Shown: positions 37,414 through 58,491, counted from the stretch's first letter. The stretch: 64,000 bases of DNA from Gracilibacter sp. BRH_c7a (GCA_001516055.1 LOEZ01000019.1:124001-188000), one strand, 5' to 3'. Notes: generated by a model from the sequence alone, not told the origin. Numbers and translations are program-made.

Positions 37414-37614
37414 ATCTTAAATCCTTCCGTTAAAAAACTATAATCTTTAAAACATGTGTTTTTTTTGTTCAATTACATTATACCTTATTTTTACCAAAAA
37501 CTTGAACGTAGATTCTATAATATCAAATTTCACATTTTGTTTACAAACAAGTAAAAGTTTGAACAACTCTTTAGATTAGAATGGTATTAATAGGAACTAG
37601 GAGGACTCTTTCAG

Positions 37615-37797
37615 ATGAAAAGTAAGCTTTTCCACATCTTAATGATGATTTGCTGCGTGGTACCCATAATCGCAATTCTCTTTTTTCTTCCCCAACTCAA
37701 ATCTAATGCAAATGGTTCTAATTTATACTGGCTTATATTACTTCTCTGCCCCGTTATGCACATAGCTATGATGAAATATATGCATAAAAAAGATTGA
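37615..37797 (+). CDS. Small membrane protein, DUF2933-like
   Basis: 60 residues with two hydrophobic segments (ILMMICCVVPIIAILFF and LYWLILLLCPVMHIAMM). The CPxMHxxM arrangement near the C-terminus is the DUF2933 hallmark and suggests metal binding. GGAGGAC precedes the ATG. It heads a run of three tiny membrane genes. Confidence 0.78.
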   Translation: MKSKLFHILMMICCVVPIIAILFFLPQLKSNANGSNLYWLILLLCPVMHIAMMKYMHKKD

Positions 37798-37836
37798 AAA
37801 TATATCTTATTGCTAATAAAAGGAGGGTGAAAAACG

Positions 37837-38016
37837 ATGGAATTGTTACAAAACTATTTACCTTATATCGTTATAGGCCTTGTAATTTTCTTTATGTTTA
37901 AACGAGGCGGATGTTGTGGTGGACACAGTAACACAAAAAATCATGATAACCATGACGACCATGATTACAACGAAAATAAAGATGATAGAGATAACTCACG
38001 AAAAAGCTGTCACTAA
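37837..38016 (+). CDS. Small membrane peptide with His/Asp/Asn-rich tail
   Basis: A 59-residue product: one membrane helix (YLPYIVIGLVIFFMF), then GGCCGGH and a hydrophilic tail rich in His, Asp and Asn (NHDDHDYNENKDD), ending SCH. AAAGGAGGG is 9 bp before the ATG. The CC and His cluster suggest metal binding. No family assigned; such proteins often accompany DUF2933 genes, which fits its position 39 bp downstream. Confidence 0.7.
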   Translation: MELLQNYLPYIVIGLVIFFMFKRGGCCGGHSNTKNHDNHDDHDYNENKDDRDNSRKSCH

Positions 38017-38104
38017 TATATTGTTTGAATCAAATCAATCATAATTCCAAATAATAAATTACAGAAAAATACTAAATTTATAAGAAAGAAGGAGGTAGTT
38101 TATA

Positions 38105-38362
38105 ATGATGCATGGTTGGTATGGACCTGGCTGGATGGGCCAAGGTGATTACTGGTGGATGGGATTAGTAGCTATGCTCATCCAAATTCTTTTTTGGGGT
38201 GGAATTATCTATCTTGTTTTCAGGTTATTAAAGAATTATTCAAGACCAAATTTTCCCGAGAAAGGTAGTGATAGCTCTTTATCAATTATTAGGGAAAGGT
38301 ATGCTAGAGGAGAGATTGATTTAGAAGAGTATAACGCTCGCAAAAGAGAACTCGAAAAATAG
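38105..38362 (+). CDS. SHOCT domain membrane protein
   Basis: 85 residues: a Trp/Gly/Met-rich N-terminus (MHGWYGPGWMGQGDYWW), one membrane helix (about residues 20-42), and the C-terminal SHOCT motif RERYARGEIDLEEYNARKRELEK (in part). GAAGGAGG precedes the start. It is the last of the three small membrane genes and is followed by a strong structured terminator. Role unknown. Confidence 0.88.
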   Translation: MMHGWYGPGWMGQGDYWWMGLVAMLIQILFWGGIIYLVFRLLKNYSRPNFPEKGSDSSLSIIRERYARGEIDLEEYNARKRELEK

Positions 38363-38477: not shown

Positions 38478-38635
38478 ATATTTCTTTAGCGTAACCTGGG
38501 GTGGATTATGTATCGTTCACATTTATTTCACAATTCGATAAATCTCTGTTCACTTCCCGGTTAATCTTTCTTCACGCTGAGATAGTAAAATATACAAATA
38601 ATTGATTTATGCCGTCCATGCTTAGGAGGAAATGT

Positions 38636-40894
38636 ATGAAAACTAAATCCCTACCAGTGATTATAGGAATATTTCTAATTGGTCTCACTCTTTTTATGTA
38701 TCAAATTACTCTCACCCGTTTATTCTCTACAATTCTATCTTATCATTTCGTATTCATGGTGATATCTCTATCCATGCTGGGATTAACGCTGGGAGGAGTC
38801 TATGCCTTCAAATGGTTTAAAAATCAAAATGAATTGGCTGATACTCTTCTTGGGCGTAAAAAACTCTCTGTTCTAAGTCTATTAAGTCTTGCCTTACTAA
38901 TCACCATTATATTTCTTTACAAAATTCCCTTTCATCCTTTCAACATACCAATTTATTTATTTTTAAGCACCTTACCATTTATTTTCGGCGGCTATTATTT
39001 ATCGTTGGCTTTTAAAGAATGGGTAAATAAAAGCAATATCTTGTATTTTGCAGATTTAATCGGGTCTGCAATTGGCGCAATCTTAATTGTACTGTTATTA
39101 AACCACTTTAGCATCTTACGCGTTGGGTTTATATTAAGCTTAATCCCTCTTTTCGTTCTAACCTTCAATATCGAGAATAAATCACGAAAAATTGCAGGAA
39201 TCGTAGTTTCTCTATCTATTATTTCGTTACTCGTGACTCAAGGAACAATTATAGATAACTGGTCCAAAGATTTTGGTGCTTTTAAGGGTAGTCCAAAGAT
39301 GTTAGCTTCCCTGTCCGAAGATAAACCTCGCATAGCCTATACCTTCTGGAACTCACTTGCTAGAACAGATGTAGTCGAGACAGATCTTGATCAGGATAAA
39401 ATCATACTGGTTGATGGTGGAGCCGCCTCCAGGATGATACCCTTTAATGGTGACTTAGATTCAGTCGAGTACCTTAAAGGAAATTTAGGCTATTTTCCAT
39501 TTTCATATAAAGAAAACAAATCTGCACTCTTAATTGGACCTGGTGGAGGAAGAGACATCCTTCTGGCGAAATTGGCTGGCATCGAATCAATCACAGCTGT
39601 TGAGCTTAACCCAGGTTCCTTAATGGCGGCAGAAGCCTTCAAAGAATTCAACGGCAACATTTATGGAACAGATAACGTAACAACCTATATTGATGATGGG
39701 CGCAGCTTTATTTCCAGCGATTCTAACAAATATGATGTAATATTCCTAGCTTTAGTCATGACCCAAGCTTCGGAAACTTTGGGATATGCTCTCTCTGAGA
39801 ACTATATATATACCAAAGAAGCCTATGAAACATATCTTAACCATTTAAACCCTGGGGGGACGTTGGCCTTTGTCTTACACGGTGAGAATGATCTATATAA
39901 GGCCACGACTACAATTCTTAAAATTTTTGAAGAAAAGGGTATTCCTAGAGAAGATGCAGTCAAATATATAACCGTTGTCAATAGCCCTAGTACCCATGGT
40001 ACAACATCAGATCATACACTTCATGTCATGTATCCGCTCCTCATGGTGAAGAACACACCCTTTGAGAAAGTGGAGAGCGAAGAAATTATCGGATTAGCCT
40101 TGAATGCCGAAGCAAAAATACTAAGTTTACCTAACTTCCATGAAAAACTTTTAGATTTTACTCCACCAAAAAACATGGAAGGTTCTTATCTTGTTACTGA
40201 TAATTATCCTTTCTTCTATAATCAAGGTCGGACCGCACCTTTTCTTGTAATCTTCATGCTTATCGTCACTCTATTATTGGGTAGATACTTAACAAGAAAA
40301 TCTCTAATCACAAAGAACGAAGATGTCACTTATTTCAAAACCTATTACTCCTATATAGGGTTAGGTTTCATGCTTATAGAAATACCTCTTATTCAAAAGT
40401 TGATCCTCTTATTTGGACATCCTACCTTAACTTTTTCTGTGGTAATTCCCATCTTATTGTTGGCTGCTGGTCTGGGTAGTCTTTCCAGCAAGATTATAAC
40501 TACAAAGGTTACTATGAGAACTATAGGTATTATTATCTTTGTCTATACCGGCATACTCTTTGTCTATCTTCCTAGGTTCATCGATACATTTCAAGGAGCT
40601 GATCTTTCATTGAAAATCCTAGCTACCTTCCTACTCTTATTACCTCTCGGTTTATTTATGGGTATTCCCTTCCCCTCCGGACTTAAAATTATGAAGGATA
40701 GAGGTATAACCGATTATGTTCCCCTGATGTGGGGAATAAACGGTTGGATGTCGGTTGTCGGCTCTATTCTTTCTTTAGTGCTGGCCATGTCTCTAGGCTA
40801 TAATATAACTCTTCTGGTAGGAGCAAGTTTATATCTTCTATTTGCCTTTCACAATAGGAAGATACGTGCATTTTTGGAAGATAAACACTCATAA
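38636..40894 (+). CDS. Membrane-embedded spermidine synthase-like protein
   Basis: 752 residues from the ATG at 38636 (AGGAGG 5 bp upstream; the longer frame from 38609 lacks one). The N-terminal region has six membrane helices, and a Rossmann methyltransferase/spermidine-synthase-like domain lies at about residues 270-480 (LLIGPGGGRDILLAK, AVELNPGS, YIDDGRSFI). About seven more helices follow. The acidic catalytic Asp of true spermidine synthases is not clearly present (FLALVMTQ in its place), so aminopropyl transfer is doubtful. The substrate is unknown. Confidence 0.82.
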   Translation: MKTKSLPVIIGIFLIGLTLFMYQITLTRLFSTILSYHFVFMVISLSMLGLTLGGVYAFKWFKNQNELADTLLGRKKLSVLSLLSLALLITIIFLYKIPFHPFNIPIYLFLSTLPFIFGGYYLSLAFKEWVNKSNILYFADLIGSAIGAILIVLLLNHFSILRVGFILSLIPLFVLTFNIENKSRKIAGIVVSLSIISLLVTQGTIIDNWSKDFGAFKGSPKMLASLSEDKPRIAYTFWNSLARTDVVETDLDQDKIILVDGGAASRMIPFNGDLDSVEYLKGNLGYFPFSYKENKSALLIGPGGGRDILLAKLAGIESITAVELNPGSLMAAEAFKEFNGNIYGTDNVTTYIDDGRSFISSDSNKYDVIFLALVMTQASETLGYALSENYIYTKEAYETYLNHLNPGGTLAFVLHGENDLYKATTTILKIFEEKGIPREDAVKYITVVNSPSTHGTTSDHTLHVMYPLLMVKNTPFEKVESEEIIGLALNAEAKILSLPNFHEKLLDFTPPKNMEGSYLVTDNYPFFYNQGRTAPFLVIFMLIVTLLLGRYLTRKSLITKNEDVTYFKTYYSYIGLGFMLIEIPLIQKLILLFGHPTLTFSVVIPILLLAAGLGSLSSKIITTKVTMRTIGIIIFVYTGILFVYLPRFIDTFQGADLSLKILATFLLLLPLGLFMGIPFPSGLKIMKDRGITDYVPLMWGINGWMSVVGSILSLVLAMSLGYNITLLVGASLYLLFAFHNRKIRAFLEDKHS

Positions 40895-47060: not shown

Positions 47061-47386
47061 TTACCTATCCTCCTTGTTCGCTCTATCCCTGAAAGCACAT
47101 TAGCTATCATTCCTGAAAAGTTGCTTTTAGTATCTCTTAGGAAACTTTTTATTATTCTCCAACATCGTTTTAACAAACCAATCACAAAATCATAATAGTT
47201 TAGACAATCTAGTGTTTTACAATATGTTTACTTTGTATTTTCACCAAATCATCCTCTCTTAAATAGCATGTGCTGGTTTCACAGCGCATGCTATCCATTG
47301 TTAAACTGAGGGATCCTAGATTGCCTGGTTCGGACTCATTGAACAAAGAAATTACTATACTCAAAAGAAAGTAGGAGTTGATTACA
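47061..47386. promoter_or_regulatory. Regulatory region containing leader block A
   Basis: Non-coding. A 52-bp block at 47179-47230 is 46/52 identical, without gaps, to 51006-51057. It is followed by a stem-loop ATAGCATGTGCT (47263-47274)/AGCGCATGCTAT (47283-47294) that also has a counterpart in the second copy. Block A lies about 155 bp upstream of the gene starting at 47387. AGACA...TTTACAATA-like promoter elements are inside but not decisive. Confidence 0.65.
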
Positions 47387-47842
47387 TTGAAAAATAACAA
47401 ATGGGTATCGGTTTTTGGAATTGCTCTTCTAGTATTAGGAAGTATAATTGGTATCTATATCTACGCAACGGAAAATAAAAGTAGCGATACTGTACCAACC
47501 AAAGCAACTAGTCCGATTATTGATGATCAGGGCGGCATCCAAGTTGTTGCCATTTGGGAAAAATCAGATTCCCTCCAGCAAAAATTTCAACTACAGTTAA
47601 ATAACCATAGCTGGGATTTGAATGACTATGAATTTAAGAATAATATTCTTCTGAAGAAGAACGGAACGGAAATATCTTTTTCTGTTATCTCTGAGAAGAG
47701 AAATCCAGAAGGACATCACGTAGCAAGTGAGATTGTCGTGGAAAGTCCGGAGTTTGTCGGTCTGCAAGATGGCGATGAGCTTACCATGATTGTTAAAAAT
47801 ATCTTTGATACTCCTGAGCGAACCTTTACTTGGTCCTATTAA
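47387..47842 (+). CDS. Exported or membrane-anchored protein of unknown function
   Basis: 151 residues from a TTG at 47387, 9 bp after AGGAG; an in-frame TTG at 47378 directly abuts that site. The N-terminal helix (VSVFGIALLVLGSIIGIYIYA) acts as a signal anchor. The remaining 120 residues form a small beta-rich domain. No family recognised. It is 22 bp upstream of ccdA, so it may be the exported partner of that thiol transporter, though it has no cysteines. Confidence 0.7.
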   Translation: MKNNKWVSVFGIALLVLGSIIGIYIYATENKSSDTVPTKATSPIIDDQGGIQVVAIWEKSDSLQQKFQLQLNNHSWDLNDYEFKNNILLKKNGTEISFSVISEKRNPEGHHVASEIVVESPEFVGLQDGDELTMIVKNIFDTPERTFTWSY

Positions 47843-47864
47843 ATATTTAGAAAGGAGATAACCA

Positions 47865-48617
47865 GTGAGTACAGATATACTTCTCCTTCCATTCCTAGCG
47901 GGATTACTTTCATTCCTTTCTCCCTGCATCATTCCTATGTTAGGGGTATATTTCTCTCTTATAACTGGCCTTACTTCAGAACAGCTCAAGTCAGAAACGC
48001 TAAGAAGTAATTTGCGTCGCAAAGTGCTGATAAACACCTTCGCCTTCGTAGCTGGATTCGGGTTAATATTCACTGCAGCAGGTTCCATAGCAGGTTCACT
48101 TGGCAGTGTCCTAGGGCAGTGGCTGAATATATTTAGCATTATCGGCGGTTTTATGATATTAGTCTTAGCTTTAAAACTCTTGGGAATCTTTGAACTTTCT
48201 TTTTTGAGTAGACTCCACTGGGAACCAAAATTCTACAATGAACTTCGGCAAAGACCTTCCACAGGCCCTGTTATTGCTTTTATAGTAGGTCTGATCTTTG
48301 CCATAGCCTGTTCCCATTGTATAGCTCCAACTCTTTATACGATTTTATTTATGGCCGGGGCAAGTCAGAGCTGGGTGAGTGGAATGCTCATTATGGGAAT
48401 ATTCTCCCTTGGTTTAGCAATACCTTATGTAATTACAGGATTGTTCTACCACAAAGTCTTGAAATTATTAAAACGTTATCAAACTCAGCAGGTTTATATT
48501 CGACGGGTACTTGGCCTATTGATGCTGTTCTTTGCCTATATCCTGTTTACAAATCAGCTTACAGAAGTCACAGGTTTCTTATCAAGATTTTTACCAAACC
48601 TACCTTATGGAATGTGA
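47865..48617 (+). CDS. ccdA: CcdA/DsbD-type transmembrane thiol-disulfide transporter
   Basis: 250 residues from a GTG behind AAAGGAG. Six membrane helices are visible. FLSPCIIPMLGVYFS and ACSHCIAPTLYT contain the two conserved intramembrane cysteines that shuttle electrons from cytosolic thioredoxin to the outside. Such proteins serve cytochrome c maturation or extracytoplasmic thiol repair. It forms a pair with the upstream anchored protein. Confidence 0.9.
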   Translation: MSTDILLLPFLAGLLSFLSPCIIPMLGVYFSLITGLTSEQLKSETLRSNLRRKVLINTFAFVAGFGLIFTAAGSIAGSLGSVLGQWLNIFSIIGGFMILVLALKLLGIFELSFLSRLHWEPKFYNELRQRPSTGPVIAFIVGLIFAIACSHCIAPTLYTILFMAGASQSWVSGMLIMGIFSLGLAIPYVITGLFYHKVLKLLKRYQTQQVYIRRVLGLLMLFFAYILFTNQLTEVTGFLSRFLPNLPYGM

Positions 48618-48711
48618 TAATCAAACAGCAAAATTTTACAAGTGAAATAATTCTCATCATAATAAGCATATACTGAACACTAAATTTGAATTATAGATTC
48701 CAGGAGATGCT

Positions 48712-49416
48712 ATGAAGAAAAAGTATATGCCAGGATTGCTTATAAGTATGCTAACAGCAGGGATTATATTTGGTGCATCGTTTCATTTGGTTTTAATGCC
48801 TTTGTTTGATGGGCAACTATTACATTGTATATTTAGTGGTTTGTTATTTGGTCTCATTAGTTATTATTTCGCCTATTTTTTCTTTAACAGATATTGGTTA
48901 TTGCAAAAAGAAAATATGCAATTAACTAATTCTTCCCGAGTAGATCAACTTACAGGAGTCTTTAATAGAAAGGCCTTTGAAAACGACATTCTTAACCTAG
49001 GCTATAACCATTTTTATTCAATAGTTTTTATAGACATAGATAACTTTAGAGAATTTAACAATCTTTATGGCCATCAGGTTGGTGATACTGTTTTAAGTAA
49101 TGTAAGTGACATCCTTAAATCAAGTATCAGAAGCTGTGATACTGTATATAGATACGGTGGAGAAGAATTGGTTATTGTCTTAAAAGACTGTAAAAAAAAT
49201 CAGGCCTTCACGATAGGAGAAAAAGTACGGGAAAAAATATGTATGCTGGATAATTCTCCTTATCCGCCTATTACCGTTTCAGTAGGAGTAGCTTGCACTG
49301 TAAATGATGGCAGTAGAATTATTGATATAATCAAAGCAGCTGACATCGCTATGTTATACGCGAAGAGACAAGGAAAAAACCGGGTCGAAGTCTTCGATAA
49401 ATCGATTGCTCTCTAA
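48712..49416 (+). CDS. Diguanylate cyclase (GGDEF), membrane bound
   Basis: 234 residues: two N-terminal helices (residues 7-30 and 38-60), then a complete GGDEF domain with FIDIDNFREFNNLYGHQVGD and the active-site RYGGEEL. The inhibitory RxxD site (RSCD) lies five residues before the GGEE. It should make c-di-GMP from GTP. CAGGAGATG precedes the ATG. A terminator follows directly. Confidence 0.92.
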   Translation: MKKKYMPGLLISMLTAGIIFGASFHLVLMPLFDGQLLHCIFSGLLFGLISYYFAYFFFNRYWLLQKENMQLTNSSRVDQLTGVFNRKAFENDILNLGYNHFYSIVFIDIDNFREFNNLYGHQVGDTVLSNVSDILKSSIRSCDTVYRYGGEELVIVLKDCKKNQAFTIGEKVREKICMLDNSPYPPITVSVGVACTVNDGSRIIDIIKAADIAMLYAKRQGKNRVEVFDKSIAL

Positions 49417-49430
49417 ATATCAACACTAAA

Positions 49431-49471
49431 AATCCACCCAGTACTTTTGTTACTGGGTGGATTGCTTTTTT
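49431..49471 (+). terminator. Terminator after the diguanylate cyclase gene
   Basis: A 13-bp perfect stem AATCCACCCAGTA/TACTGGGTGGATT with 7-nt loop, then GCTTTTTTT. Confidence 0.92.
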
Positions 49472-49510
49472 TATCAAGCCTAAGCAGGGATATAGTTTAC
49501 ACCGTTTACT

Positions 49511-50857
49511 TTACTGAAGATAGGCTAAAGGATTACGTGATAAGCCATTTACCCTCACCTCGAAATCTAAATGCGGACCTGAACTACGCCCTGTAGATCC
49601 TACCTGGCCGATAATCTCACCACGCCGCGCCTTAGTTCCTACGGATACTGTCATAGCGGATAGGTGAGAATAGCGCGTCGTAAGACCATTACCATGATTA
49701 AGTACAATACTATTACCATAATTACCTTGCCAAGCGGCAAAAGTAACAACACCATCCTCCGCTGCCTTTACAGGGGTACCCGTGACACCTGAGATATCAA
49801 TAGCATTATGAAATTCTCTTCCTCGATAGCCGTAGCCAGAGGTAATTACCCCCCGGATGGGCCACTCTAATCCAACGATATTCCCACCCCCACGAGATAC
49901 TTCAATTGGTTTTGTTCCACGTATAACGATTCGATTTTGGGGTTTAAGCATAATCTTTTCCGCCAAAGTTTCTCTAGCCTTTTCTCTCCCATTAATTTCA
50001 GTAATTCGATAAGTTACTTGACGAGATCCATATGTTCCTGCTTTTTTCACTATCATTTGTCCCTGATATAAGCTGGGATCGTACTCATATACAGTAGTAT
50101 ACGGCATACTTTCTTCAACAGTCTTTTGTATCATATACACAACAGATAACGGCGGCTCAGATTTGATCAGGTTAATATAGTCTCCTACCTTGATGAAATC
50201 CTTCACCTCAGGATTAGCCTCTTGCAATTCATCGAACGTAATATTATTATCGCTCGCAATAGTCCACAATGAATCCCCTTCTTTTACCTCATATTGGACC
50301 TTTTCAAACAACCCTTGGGTCAGAATTTCTGCTGCTTTTTCTGAAGTCATAAGTTGTTTCAGAGAGATATAAGCGTCTACGATTTGTACCTCTTCCTCAA
50401 AAGCTACATCCTCAACCGTTACTTGCTCGTTGTCTACGGATAAGTACTGCTTCATTACCAATTCCAAGGCACCCTCGGCACTTTCATTTGATGCTAAGTG
50501 GACTACAGGTTCACCATTAATAGTTATAGCCCAACTTTGCGCCTCCCAATTCAGCTTCTCTTTCAAAAGAGTAACCAGTTGTTCATCATTTATAACAGTA
50601 TCTTTGTTCTCAATCTTTTTTTCATCATATTCTAATATGTTTCCAAAGCCATTTATACTAACAGGATATTCATTAACAAGCTCATTCTTTGCTTTGTTTA
50701 ATGCAATATCAACCTGACTTTTATCTTTAACAAAGACCTGAGACTGCCCATCGATTATTAGCACAAAAGCTTTGTCACCAGATAATATGTTGAATACAAC
50801 AGCAGGAAACAATAATAGACATAAAAGACTTAGAATATATACTGTTTTTCTCCGCAA
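49511..50857 (-). CDS. Cell-wall endopeptidase with LysM, G5 and M23 domains
   Basis: 448 residues as listed. The product has a signal anchor (residues 5-25), an N-terminal region to 195, LysM (YEVKEGDSLWTIASDNNITF in part, about 197-243), G5 (about 245-325) and a peptidase M23 domain. In M23, HNAIDIS, HLDFEV and the GNGLTTRYSHLS motif hold the zinc ligands. It cleaves peptidoglycan outside the cell. The listed TTG start at 50857 is 22 bp from its ribosome site. An ATT at 50872 is 7 bp from GGGAGG (50880-50885), so the true start may be AUU, adding five residues. Confidence 0.9.
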   Translation of the reverse strand: MRRKTVYILSLLCLLLFPAVVFNILSGDKAFVLIIDGQSQVFVKDKSQVDIALNKAKNELVNEYPVSINGFGNILEYDEKKIENKDTVINDEQLVTLLKEKLNWEAQSWAITINGEPVVHLASNESAEGALELVMKQYLSVDNEQVTVEDVAFEEEVQIVDAYISLKQLMTSEKAAEILTQGLFEKVQYEVKEGDSLWTIASDNNITFDELQEANPEVKDFIKVGDYINLIKSEPPLSVVYMIQKTVEESMPYTTVYEYDPSLYQGQMIVKKAGTYGSRQVTYRITEINGREKARETLAEKIMLKPQNRIVIRGTKPIEVSRGGGNIVGLEWPIRGVITSGYGYRGREFHNAIDISGVTGTPVKAAEDGVVTFAAWQGNYGNSIVLNHGNGLTTRYSHLSAMTVSVGTKARRGEIIGQVGSTGRSSGPHLDFEVRVNGLSRNPLAYLQ

Positions 50858-50872
50858 TATTCGAAGAAGAAT

Positions 50873-51189
50873 CCCCTCACCTCCCTTGGAGTTCAGAATC
50901 TGTGCCTATCCTATTTTAAAATATAAAAATGATAATTTTTTTGTAAATTGGTGAAGAAACTGTGAACAACCTAAGACATAACTTAACAGTCCAATCTTCA
51001 CAGAACAATCACAAAACTATAAAAGTTTAGACAATCTAGTGCTTTATAATATATTTAACACAAATAAATCAGCCAAAATTTGTTTTTGTGTTCTGTCCCT
51101 CCTATGTAATAGCATGTGCTTTTTACGGCACATGCTTTTGTTATAAGGTTCACTATTGTTACAGCTAATTTATCAACTGGAGGTATATA
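50873..51189. promoter_or_regulatory. Regulatory region containing leader block B
   Basis: Non-coding. It contains the second copy of the duplicated block (51006-51057) and the matching stem-loop AGCATGTGC (51111-51119)/GCACATGCT (51128-51136), here followed by TTTTG like a terminator. An extra hairpin AACACAAA/TTTGTGTT (about 51057-51064 with 51085-51092) lies between them and is absent from copy A. The block lies 133 bp upstream of the gene at 51190. Confidence 0.65.
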
Positions 51190-51834
51190 ATGCATTTTCT
51201 AGATAGTAATCTATATGGATTATGGGGAACGGTGCTATTTAATATTCTAATTTTTGTTATCTTTACCTATGCAGTCTTTAAACCTACGACAAAAAGAGAT
51301 TGGCGTACGTTAGGAGCATTCACTGCGTTTTTAGTCGCTTTATTCAGTGAGATGTTTGGATTCCCTTTAACAGTATATTTTCTAACATCTGTCCTTGGGA
51401 ACAAATACCCTGTTCTTGATCCTTTCACTCACCTCAATGGTCATTTATGGGTTGCTCTAGCAGGGGGCTCCCCACTTCTATACTCAATCTTGCATCCGCT
51501 TAGCAGTATCATGATTTTTGGTGGTTTGTTAGTAATCGCAATTGGCTGGAGAGGAATACATTCAGGTAATGGAGAACTGGTTACAGAGGGCATTTATAAT
51601 TATGTTCGACATCCGCAGTACAGTGGATTTATATTAATGATAATTGGATTTCTTGTACAATGGCCCACAATTATAACGTTAGTCACCGGACCAATTTTAT
51701 TGATTATGTATACCAGGCTAGCCAGAAAAGAGGAATTAGTAATGATAGACCTTTTTGGTGAGGAGTATAGCGATTACAGAGAAAAAGTGCCTGCTTTTAT
51801 CCCTTTTTCAAAAATTAAAAAGGCAAACATCTAA
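51190..51834 (+). CDS. Isoprenylcysteine carboxyl methyltransferase-like membrane protein
   Basis: 214 residues, five to six membrane helices. The C-terminal ICMT/PEMT-type SAM motif is clear: TEGIYNYVRHPQYSGFILMIIG (in part), followed by RLARKEELVMIDLFGEEYSDYREKVPAFIPF (in part). Such proteins methylate small or membrane-bound substrates; the true substrate here is unknown. CTGGAGG precedes the ATG. It is the only gene of its unit and lies behind leader block B. Confidence 0.88.
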   Translation: MHFLDSNLYGLWGTVLFNILIFVIFTYAVFKPTTKRDWRTLGAFTAFLVALFSEMFGFPLTVYFLTSVLGNKYPVLDPFTHLNGHLWVALAGGSPLLYSILHPLSSIMIFGGLLVIAIGWRGIHSGNGELVTEGIYNYVRHPQYSGFILMIIGFLVQWPTIITLVTGPILLIMYTRLARKEELVMIDLFGEEYSDYREKVPAFIPFSKIKKANI

Positions 51835-57096: not shown

Positions 57097-57133
57097 TTTG
57101 AGAAAACACTACTAATTTTATAGGAATACTATT

Positions 57134-57232
57134 CTTATCAAGAGCGGTGGAGGGACTGGCCCTATGATACCCGGCAACCGACCGAAAGGCACGGTGCTAA
57201 TTCCTGAAGGATTTACAATCCTAGAGATGAGA
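57134..57232 (+). ncRNA. SAM-I (S-box) riboswitch aptamer
   Basis: The conserved S-box core is clear: CTTATCAAGAG, GGTGGAGGGACTGGCCC, ATGA-ACCCGGCAACC, and GGTGCTAATTCCTG, closed by GATGAG pairing with the start. It binds S-adenosylmethionine and then allows the downstream terminator to form. It controls metI-metC. Confidence 0.95.
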
Positions 57233-57238
57233 TTGACT

Positions 57239-57348: not shown

Positions 57349-58491
57349 ATGAAAAATCTAGATATTCTAACTGAACTCGCCCAACTGGGTAACAAATTAG
57401 ATCCTACTGGTGCCGTGAGCTTCCCTATCTATCATTCTGCTACCTACGCACATCCGGAGCTCGGTAAAAGTACAGGATATGACTACTCGAGAACTGCCAA
57501 CCCTACCCGGTCTGTATTAGAAAGTGCAATTGCCAACTTGGAACGAGGTTGTAAAGGTTTAGCTTTCGCTTCCGGGCTGGCTGGAATAACCACCGTGCTT
57601 TCCCTGTTCAAACAGGGAGATCACCTCATTGTTACCGAAGACCTATACGGAGGCACCTTTAGACTTTTTGAACAAATCTACAAAGAGTTCGGTATAAGTG
57701 CAACTTATGTTGATACAAGTGATAATGACCTTATTACCCAAGCAATCCTACCTACGACTAAGGCAATTTTTTGTGAAACCCCTACCAACCCTGTTATGCG
57801 TATAGCTGATATCAAGGGAATCTCCAAGATAGCACGCTTCCACGGCCTTTTGACTATTGTCGATAATACTTTCCTTACTCCATTCCTCCAAAGACCTTTA
57901 GAGCTGGGAGCAGATATAGTCGTTCACAGTGCCACGAAATATCTGGGCGGTCACAATGATGTGGTGGCTGGCCTAGTAGTTACTAACAGTGAAATTTTAG
58001 CGGAAAGATTGAGTTTTCTCCAAAATGCTCTAGGTACTATCCTAGGCCCTCAGGACTGTTGGCTTCTTCTTAGGGGCTTAAAGACCTTAGGCCTTCGGAT
58101 GGAACGGCAGCAGCAGAATTCTATCGTCATCGCCGCTTGGCTTTCTAACCATCCCCTCGTAGATCAAGTATTTTATCCAGGCCTACCTCATCACCCTGGT
58201 TATGAAGTTCAGCATGCTCAAGCTGCTGGACCCGGTGCGATTATCTCTTTCTCTTTAAAAAACAAGGATGATATAACAAAAGTACTGAAAAAAGTAAAAC
58301 TTATTTCTTTCGCCGAAAGCCTCGGCGGAGTTGAAAGTCTGATAACCTATCCTTTTATTCAAACTCACGCTGATATTCCTCAAGAAACAAGAGAAAAAAT
58401 AGGAATCAACGAGAGAGTGCTTAGACTCTCCGTTGGAATCGAAAGCATCCAAGATCTCCTTGAAGACCTTAATCAGGCTCTGGAAAGCTGA
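57349..58491 (+). CDS. metI: Cystathionine gamma-synthase / O-acetylhomoserine thiolyase (MetI type)
   Basis: A 380-residue PLP enzyme of the CGS/CGL family. YDYSRTANPTRSVLE binds the phosphate, and the PLP Lys lies in HSATKYLGGHND. Its position directly under an S-box and before a paralogue matches metI-metC of Bacillus subtilis, so MetI is the best call. Methionine gamma-lyase or gamma-lyase cannot be excluded by sequence alone. GAAAGGAG precedes the ATG. Confidence 0.88.
   Translation: MKNLDILTELAQLGNKLDPTGAVSFPIYHSATYAHPELGKSTGYDYSRTANPTRSVLESAIANLERGCKGLAFASGLAGITTVLSLFKQGDHLIVTEDLYGGTFRLFEQIYKEFGISATYVDTSDNDLITQAILPTTKAIFCETPTNPVMRIADIKGISKIARFHGLLTIVDNTFLTPFLQRPLELGADIVVHSATKYLGGHNDVVAGLVVTNSEILAERLSFLQNALGTILGPQDCWLLLRGLKTLGLRMERQQQNSIVIAAWLSNHPLVDQVFYPGLPHHPGYEVQHAQAAGPGAIISFSLKNKDDITKVLKKVKLISFAESLGGVESLITYPFIQTHADIPQETREKIGINERVLRLSVGIESIQDLLEDLNQALES

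Follow-up and report, generated by a model that had tools for sequence, protein, structure and literature searches.

Two similar intergenic blocks of Gracilibacter sp. BRH_c7a as members of a family of fixed-spacing promoter units that suggests a copper and envelope stress regulon

Why should two separate gene groups of one bacterial contig be preceded by nearly the same intergenic sequence? The question is raised by a 64,000-nucleotide stretch of Gracilibacter sp. BRH_c7a (GCA_001516055.1 LOEZ01000019.1:124001-188000; hereafter the window, with positions counted from its first letter, and its contig C19), in which the blocks at 47179-47230 and 51006-51057 are identical at 46 of 52 positions without gaps. 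A sequence-only reading had reported this match and had proposed a shared promoter, operator or RNA leader in front of unrelated genes, and a regulon that the gene names do not reveal. With BLAST the match grew to 47170-47230 (61 bp, 85%, E 3e-13), and the genome-wide search that this reading had called for turned up no third sequence of comparable similarity in the 4.1-Mb assembly; here and below, genome-wide statements come from pattern searches. Exact matches to the 17-bp core GTTTAGACAATCTAGTG are likewise confined to the two blocks genome-wide, and with up to 3 mismatches allowed shuffles yield 0.22 matches in the window. Across 80 relatives the number of core matches was close to that of a reversed control, because the core is not the conserved part of the blocks.

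The repeated block is a promoter unit, comprised of four half-sites in 11-bp steps and a -10 box at a fixed distance. The half-sites follow one another as TTMACA, WTCACA and then two weaker versions, and the -10 box starts exactly 48 bp after the first half-site. The units of the window and the genes behind them are as follows.

37529..37582 (+): promoter unit of the DUF2933/CCGGH/SHOCT operon; TTCACA-N5-TTTACA, -10 box TAGAAT at +48
37615..38362 (+): DUF2933 protein (37615-37797), Cys/His-rich membrane peptide CCGGH (37837-38016) and SHOCT protein (38105-38362)
38516..38591 (+): extended site before the 761-aa gene; TTCACA-N5-TTCACA
38609..40894 (+): 761-aa protein with a weak spermine-synthase-like domain, below the Pfam cut-off
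47170..47223 (+): promoter unit of the anchored protein and ccdA, holding most of the first block; half-sites TTAACA (47170-47175), ATCACA (47181-47186), ATAATA (47192-47197) and GACAAT (47203-47208), -10 box TACAAT (47218-47223); kept in the sister species
47387..47842 (+): anchored protein, no Pfam or NCBIfam family
47865..48617 (+): ccdA (DsbD_TM)
48712..49416 (+): gene for a GGDEF protein, downstream of ccdA; related clusters retain a GGDEF homologue
49511..50857 (-): M23 peptidase with G5 and LysM domains
50913..50966 (-): promoter unit of the M23 peptidase, back to back (divergent) with the next; TTCACA-N5-TTCACC, ACAAAA, ATCATT, -10 box TAAAAT at +48
50997..51050 (+): promoter unit of the ICMT-like gene, holding most of the second block; TTCACA, ATCACA, ATAAAA and GACAAT in 11-bp steps, -10 box TATAAT (51045-51050); kept in the sister species
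51190..51834 (+): ICMT/PEMT-like membrane methyltransferase

The start of the anchored protein is more likely 47387 (TTG), where the sister species has ATG, than 47378, judging by the sequences. Seven units can be aligned with half-sites at 0/11/22/33 and the -10 box at exactly +48: those at 37529 (+, TAGAAT), 47170 (+, TACAAT), 50966 (-, TAAAAT) and 50997 (+, TATAAT) of the window, and those at 195950 (-, TATACT), 196382 (-, TATATT) and 196415 (+, TAGAAT) of C19. All seven fall inside 35 kb of this one contig, and two further sites are weaker or extended. The weaker one, at C19 192924 (PWM score 16.5), precedes a regulator gene. The extended one, at 38516, carries extra half-sites in 11-bp phase (TTCACT at +33, TTCACG at +55) and a -10 box TAAAAT at +70 (48+22), and it fits the fixed-spacing model poorly (PWM score 10.5). 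The two blocks are thus the most similar members of a larger set, being alike at 46 of 54 positions, against 21 to 38 of 54 for any other two units of the genome. The proposal of a regulon unnamed by its genes was supported by this family of same-spacing units, with those at 37529, 38516 and 50913-50966 (minus strand) added to the original pair.

The confinement of the layout is apparent from several searches. A first pattern, WTCACA-N5-WTCACA, built from the two blocks, the site at 50966 and orthologous sequences, matches exactly at three places in 4.1 Mb, all of them inside 34 kb of this contig; two of its exact matches lie beyond its sources, both at most about 21 kb from the blocks. Its one-mismatch matches are enriched locally, 8 of the 57 non-seed ones falling inside one 50-kb stretch (1.2% of the genome). 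A full-unit pattern including the -10 box has six exact matches in 4.1 Mb, all at C19 171170-196468 (within 25 kb), and its reversed version has none in the same 4.1 Mb; this pattern was written after the sites were seen and hence shows confinement, not independent discovery. The 37529 unit has one mismatch to it, as does a site at C30:57417, which has TTAACA repeats and lies upstream of genes of uncertain relevance. Leave-one-out PWM scores of the seven units range from 18.6 to 40.5, and the best score in 1.2 Mb of Markov-shuffled sequence was 12.7.

Two further sites of this contig deserve mention in their own right. The high-scoring minus-strand unit at C19 195790-195950 (L126:7790-7950) lies just past the stop of a Met/His-rich gene and faces a geneless gap, with a very stable, GC-rich, terminator-like hairpin about 80 nt downstream of it; this unit could drive a small regulated RNA. 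TTCACA repeats (PWM score 20.9) also occur at L126:18303-18314 (-) (C19 206303-206314) upstream of a permease/ABC-ATPase operon, which is a possible further target, with no clear -10 box at +48.

Conservation indicates which parts of the blocks matter. In the sister species (G001, the other searched genome of the genus) both promoters stand before the orthologous genes, as expected of the shared promoter or operator that had been proposed. The features kept there are CAATCACA, the TTMACA half-site 11 bp before ATCACA, and the -10 box, and the intergenic region of the M23 peptidase shows TTCACA-N5-TTCACC with TAAAAT at the equal distance. The layout is also found upstream of anchored-protein/ccdA or ICMT orthologues in G012, G034, G053, G058, G069 and G029. 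Among the relatives, the triple TTCAYA repeat is far over its reversed control in family f2, whose genomes we infer to belong to Desulfitobacteriales, and near background in f1 and f4. In 289 kb of f2 clusters, 74 pairs of half-sites are spaced by 11 bp, 28 by 22 bp and 6 by 33 bp; no spacing outside the multiples of 11 has more than 5 pairs, and shuffles give 0.4 at 11 bp. The 11-bp excess is partly due to selection, as these clusters were chosen for holding repeats. The +48 position was not selected, and there a -10-like hexamer follows 38 of 56 triplets, the next best position having 4.

The genes behind the units point to copper. Beyond the genes listed above, units of this genome are found in front of lgt and of the gene for a secreted Met/His-rich protein, and a weak one in front of the gene pair for an OmpR-type response regulator and its kinase. 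Copper genes present in the window include copA, copZ, csoR and a multicopper oxidase, for which the PWM scan found no units of their own, and a Csp1-like copper storage protein that scores below its cut-off. The description of the genes behind the two blocks as unrelated did not hold, since homologues of CcdA, the anchored protein, Lgt, ICMT, the Met/His protein and the GGDEF protein adjoin in G034. Similar company is kept on a Paenibacillus plasmid, where heavy-metal ATPases, a CopZ-type cation transporter, glutaredoxin and a four-helix copper protein occur together beside lgt, a spermine synthase homologue and CcdA, and on a Nocardia plasmid, which unites a multicopper oxidase, DUF305, ICMT, a four-helix copper protein, a P-type ATPase, SHOCT and DUF2933. 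In the copper island of Enterococcus faecalis, lgt is found with cusRS, cueO and tcrYAZB (PMC4511184), and CzcN of Cupriavidus is an ICMT-like protein (PMC7563307). In genomes of the Desulfosporosinus type, units stand in front of csoR with copA behind it, of a CopZ-like gene, of lgt, and of genes for PspA, TerD, FtsH-like and SigI-like proteins; NlpC/P60 genes are among the other envelope targets.

Two recurrent gene types were observed in passing. Units also stand before secreted proteins with many GYGMMGG repeats and before other Met-rich secreted proteins that lack a Pfam family, some with Met/His motifs (L219, L222, L224-L226 and other Desulfosporosinus-type clusters); these are possible extracellular copper binders. 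A GGDEF (diguanylate cyclase) homologue recurs in copper clusters (window 48712-49416, L141, L145, L147, L148, L151, L220, L223), which hints at a link between copper stress and cyclic-di-GMP.

What might read the units? Two properties of OmpR/PhoB-type operators are present in them, namely a half-site repeated in direct orientation about once per helical turn, and a fixed position relative to the -10 box that overlaps the -35 region. An OmpR-type regulator is indeed associated with the sites: outside the window, some 18 kb further along than the second block and flanked by other units, lies a response regulator/histidine kinase pair (C19 193322-195783, L126:5322-7783). The regulator (about L126:5298-6008) has both Pfam domains, the receiver and Trans_reg_C, and the kinase (L126:6011-7780) is a HAMP/PAS protein of 590 aa. 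The pair is syntenic in G001 (94% and 85% identity), a pair of 68%/55% is found in G012, and in the G034 and G045 clusters the regulator identity is 47%. A unit precedes the regulator in G001 and G069 and, in the weak form at C19 192924, in the present genome (G000), the G001 copy being stronger with identical spacing; upstream of the regulators in the G034 and G045 clusters no unit was found. The regulator stays below the cut-offs of three specific models: TIGR01387 for the heavy-metal regulators CopR/CzcR/SilR (167.2 vs 279.2 bits), TIGR02154 for PhoB (200.9 vs 296.2) and NF040534 for WalR/YycF (204.1 vs 340). In the sensor region of the kinase, Cys, His and Met residues are kept in three genomes (VH, Q[VL]C, [TP]H, FDTQM) and, as far as sequence can tell, are candidates for metal-binding residues.

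We therefore consider it probable that the two blocks are activator promoters of a copper-island regulon, read by the response regulator of the island itself. In the mechanism we envisage, the phosphorylated OmpR/PhoB-type regulator, most likely that of the pair described above, would occupy all four half-sites in a head-to-tail arrangement between about -60 and -22, on a single face of the DNA as they are 11 bp apart. It would thereby recruit RNA polymerase to a promoter without a good -35 box, which the -10 box at +48 would complete. This would switch on the anchored protein and ccdA, ICMT, the M23 peptidase, the DUF2933-CCGGH-SHOCT operon, lgt and the Met/His-rich secreted protein, and perhaps, on weaker support, the regulator's own gene. 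The signal would be copper, or a related metal or envelope stress; judging from the gene content of the islands and of the units in relatives, a copper-responsive, envelope-protecting regulon is the reading that fits best.

The same kind of promoter might instead be read by another OmpR-type protein, ResD-, PhoP- or WalR-like, in response to redox, phosphate or cell-wall stress and not copper. The targets do include a redox gene (ccdA) and wall or envelope genes (M23, NlpC/P60, PspA, FtsH, SigI-like), the best scores of the kinase are with the WalK and PnpS/PhoR models, below their cut-offs, and a second Desulfosporosinus regulator group with a nearly identical recognition helix likewise has TCACA repeats upstream. 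However, the units of this genome are confined to a single 35-kb stretch that also holds the regulator/kinase pair, the gene families behind them match those found in copper islands, a relative has a unit before csoR-copA, and the PhoB, YycF/WalR and copR-type models were not reached. We regard this alternative as unlikely, although it retains an appreciable chance.

A more distant alternative is that the shared element is an RNA leader, with a hairpin acting as an attenuator or a protein-binding site. Stem-loops of the form GCATGTGC...GCRCATGC do follow both blocks, about 34 and 53 bp downstream, as had been noted.

47264..47293 (+): stem-loop in the leader of the ccdA operon; missing from the leader of the sister species
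51111..51136 (+): stem-loop in the leader of the ICMT-like gene; flagged by the scan as resembling a terminator, and retained in the sister species

The exact pattern occurs at these two sites only, genome-wide; each leader is more stably folded than its shuffles (z about -3.8 in both cases), and the sole stem difference between the copies is A-U versus G-U, so that pairing is kept in the RNA. Nevertheless, the 52-bp block lies upstream of the predicted start and is hence not transcribed, a scan with Rfam at the gathering score gave no match in either leader, and the hairpin is missing from the ccdA leader of the sister species. Its lack there marks it as optional and dispensable in evolution, and the claim that it is part of the shared signal has to be given up; an RNA leader as the shared element is accordingly very improbable. 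The ICMT hairpin might still attenuate or stabilise its transcript. The only Rfam match in the whole window is a SAM riboswitch at 57132-57233 (+) (RF00162, 83 bits), before the gene at 57349.

Less credible again is a repressor bound to the palindrome TAGACAATCTA between -35 and -10: it is exact in both blocks and inside the promoter, but it is broken in both units of the sister species, which reads TTTGGACATTCTAG and TTTGGTCAATCTAG at those places, and the other units of this genome lack it; on the former ground this operator was rejected. That the blocks are a functionless recent duplication, gene conversion or mobile repeat might be suggested by their being more alike than any other two units, but can be dismissed with near certainty, given just two copies, the lack of random copies elsewhere in the assembly, which the sequence-only reading had named as the sign of a mobile repeat, and the similarity of the two units to their orthologues (54/60 and 52/60), which is no lower than that between the pair inside this genome (51/60) and makes the pair older than the species split.

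With the activator promoters of a copper-island regulon thus favoured, two similar intergenic blocks become a readable regulatory code, and its presence before most gene groups of a copper-handling island, here and in related bacteria, suggests an undescribed copper and envelope stress regulon. Several genes known by family name only, such as those for the anchored protein, the ICMT-like, DUF2933 and SHOCT proteins, the spermine-synthase-like membrane protein and the Met/His-rich proteins, acquire a copper and envelope-stress context, and the code provides a list of testable targets in Desulfosporosinus and relatives. A bolder proposition, which we put forward tentatively and with more doubt than conviction, is that a Desulfitobacteriales-wide code (TTCAYA-type half-sites at 11 bp, -10 box at +48) unites copper detoxification (csoR-copA, CopZ-like and Met-rich secreted proteins, lgt, ccdA, ICMT) with envelope repair (M23, NlpC/P60, PspA, FtsH-like, TerD, SigI-like factor) and, as part of the same reading, constitutes an undescribed Gram-positive counterpart of the Cpx response. 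Within the literature searched, no description of such a regulon in Desulfosporosinus was found, and a search for ResD (TTCACA) or PhoP (TTAACA) boxes returned nothing on point.

Comparison with known systems places the units as an operator of a known kind with an apparently undescribed code. The pho box of PhoB and the PhoP box of Bacillus are tandem direct-repeat operators of OmpR/PhoB-family response regulators. Like them, the units line up half-sites of some 6 bp in one orientation, 11 bp apart and immediately before the -10 box, with a winged-helix OmpR-type regulator nearby; unlike them, the half-site is TTCACA/TTCAYA and the targets centre on copper-island and envelope genes. ResDE of Bacillus uses TTGTGAA-type sites, and has a similar recognition helix and a kinase of similar size. 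The TTCACA half-site and the presence of the redox gene ccdA among the targets may, by analogy, recall that system, whereas the genomic context here is copper. The Rex operator, TTGTGAA-W4-TTCACAA (PMC2883068), also contains TTCACA but is an inverted repeat, and a Rex site was rejected, as all half-sites here run in the same direction in 11-bp steps. Finally, copper-responsive two-component systems are known from copper islands, as with CusRS in E. faecalis (PMC4511184) and CopRS in Corynebacterium glutamicum (PMC3140484). The present system shares with them a regulator/kinase pair in an island with lgt, a copper ATPase and a multicopper oxidase, but it differs in that its regulator falls below TIGR01387 (167 vs 279 bits) and its operator is made of tandem direct repeats.
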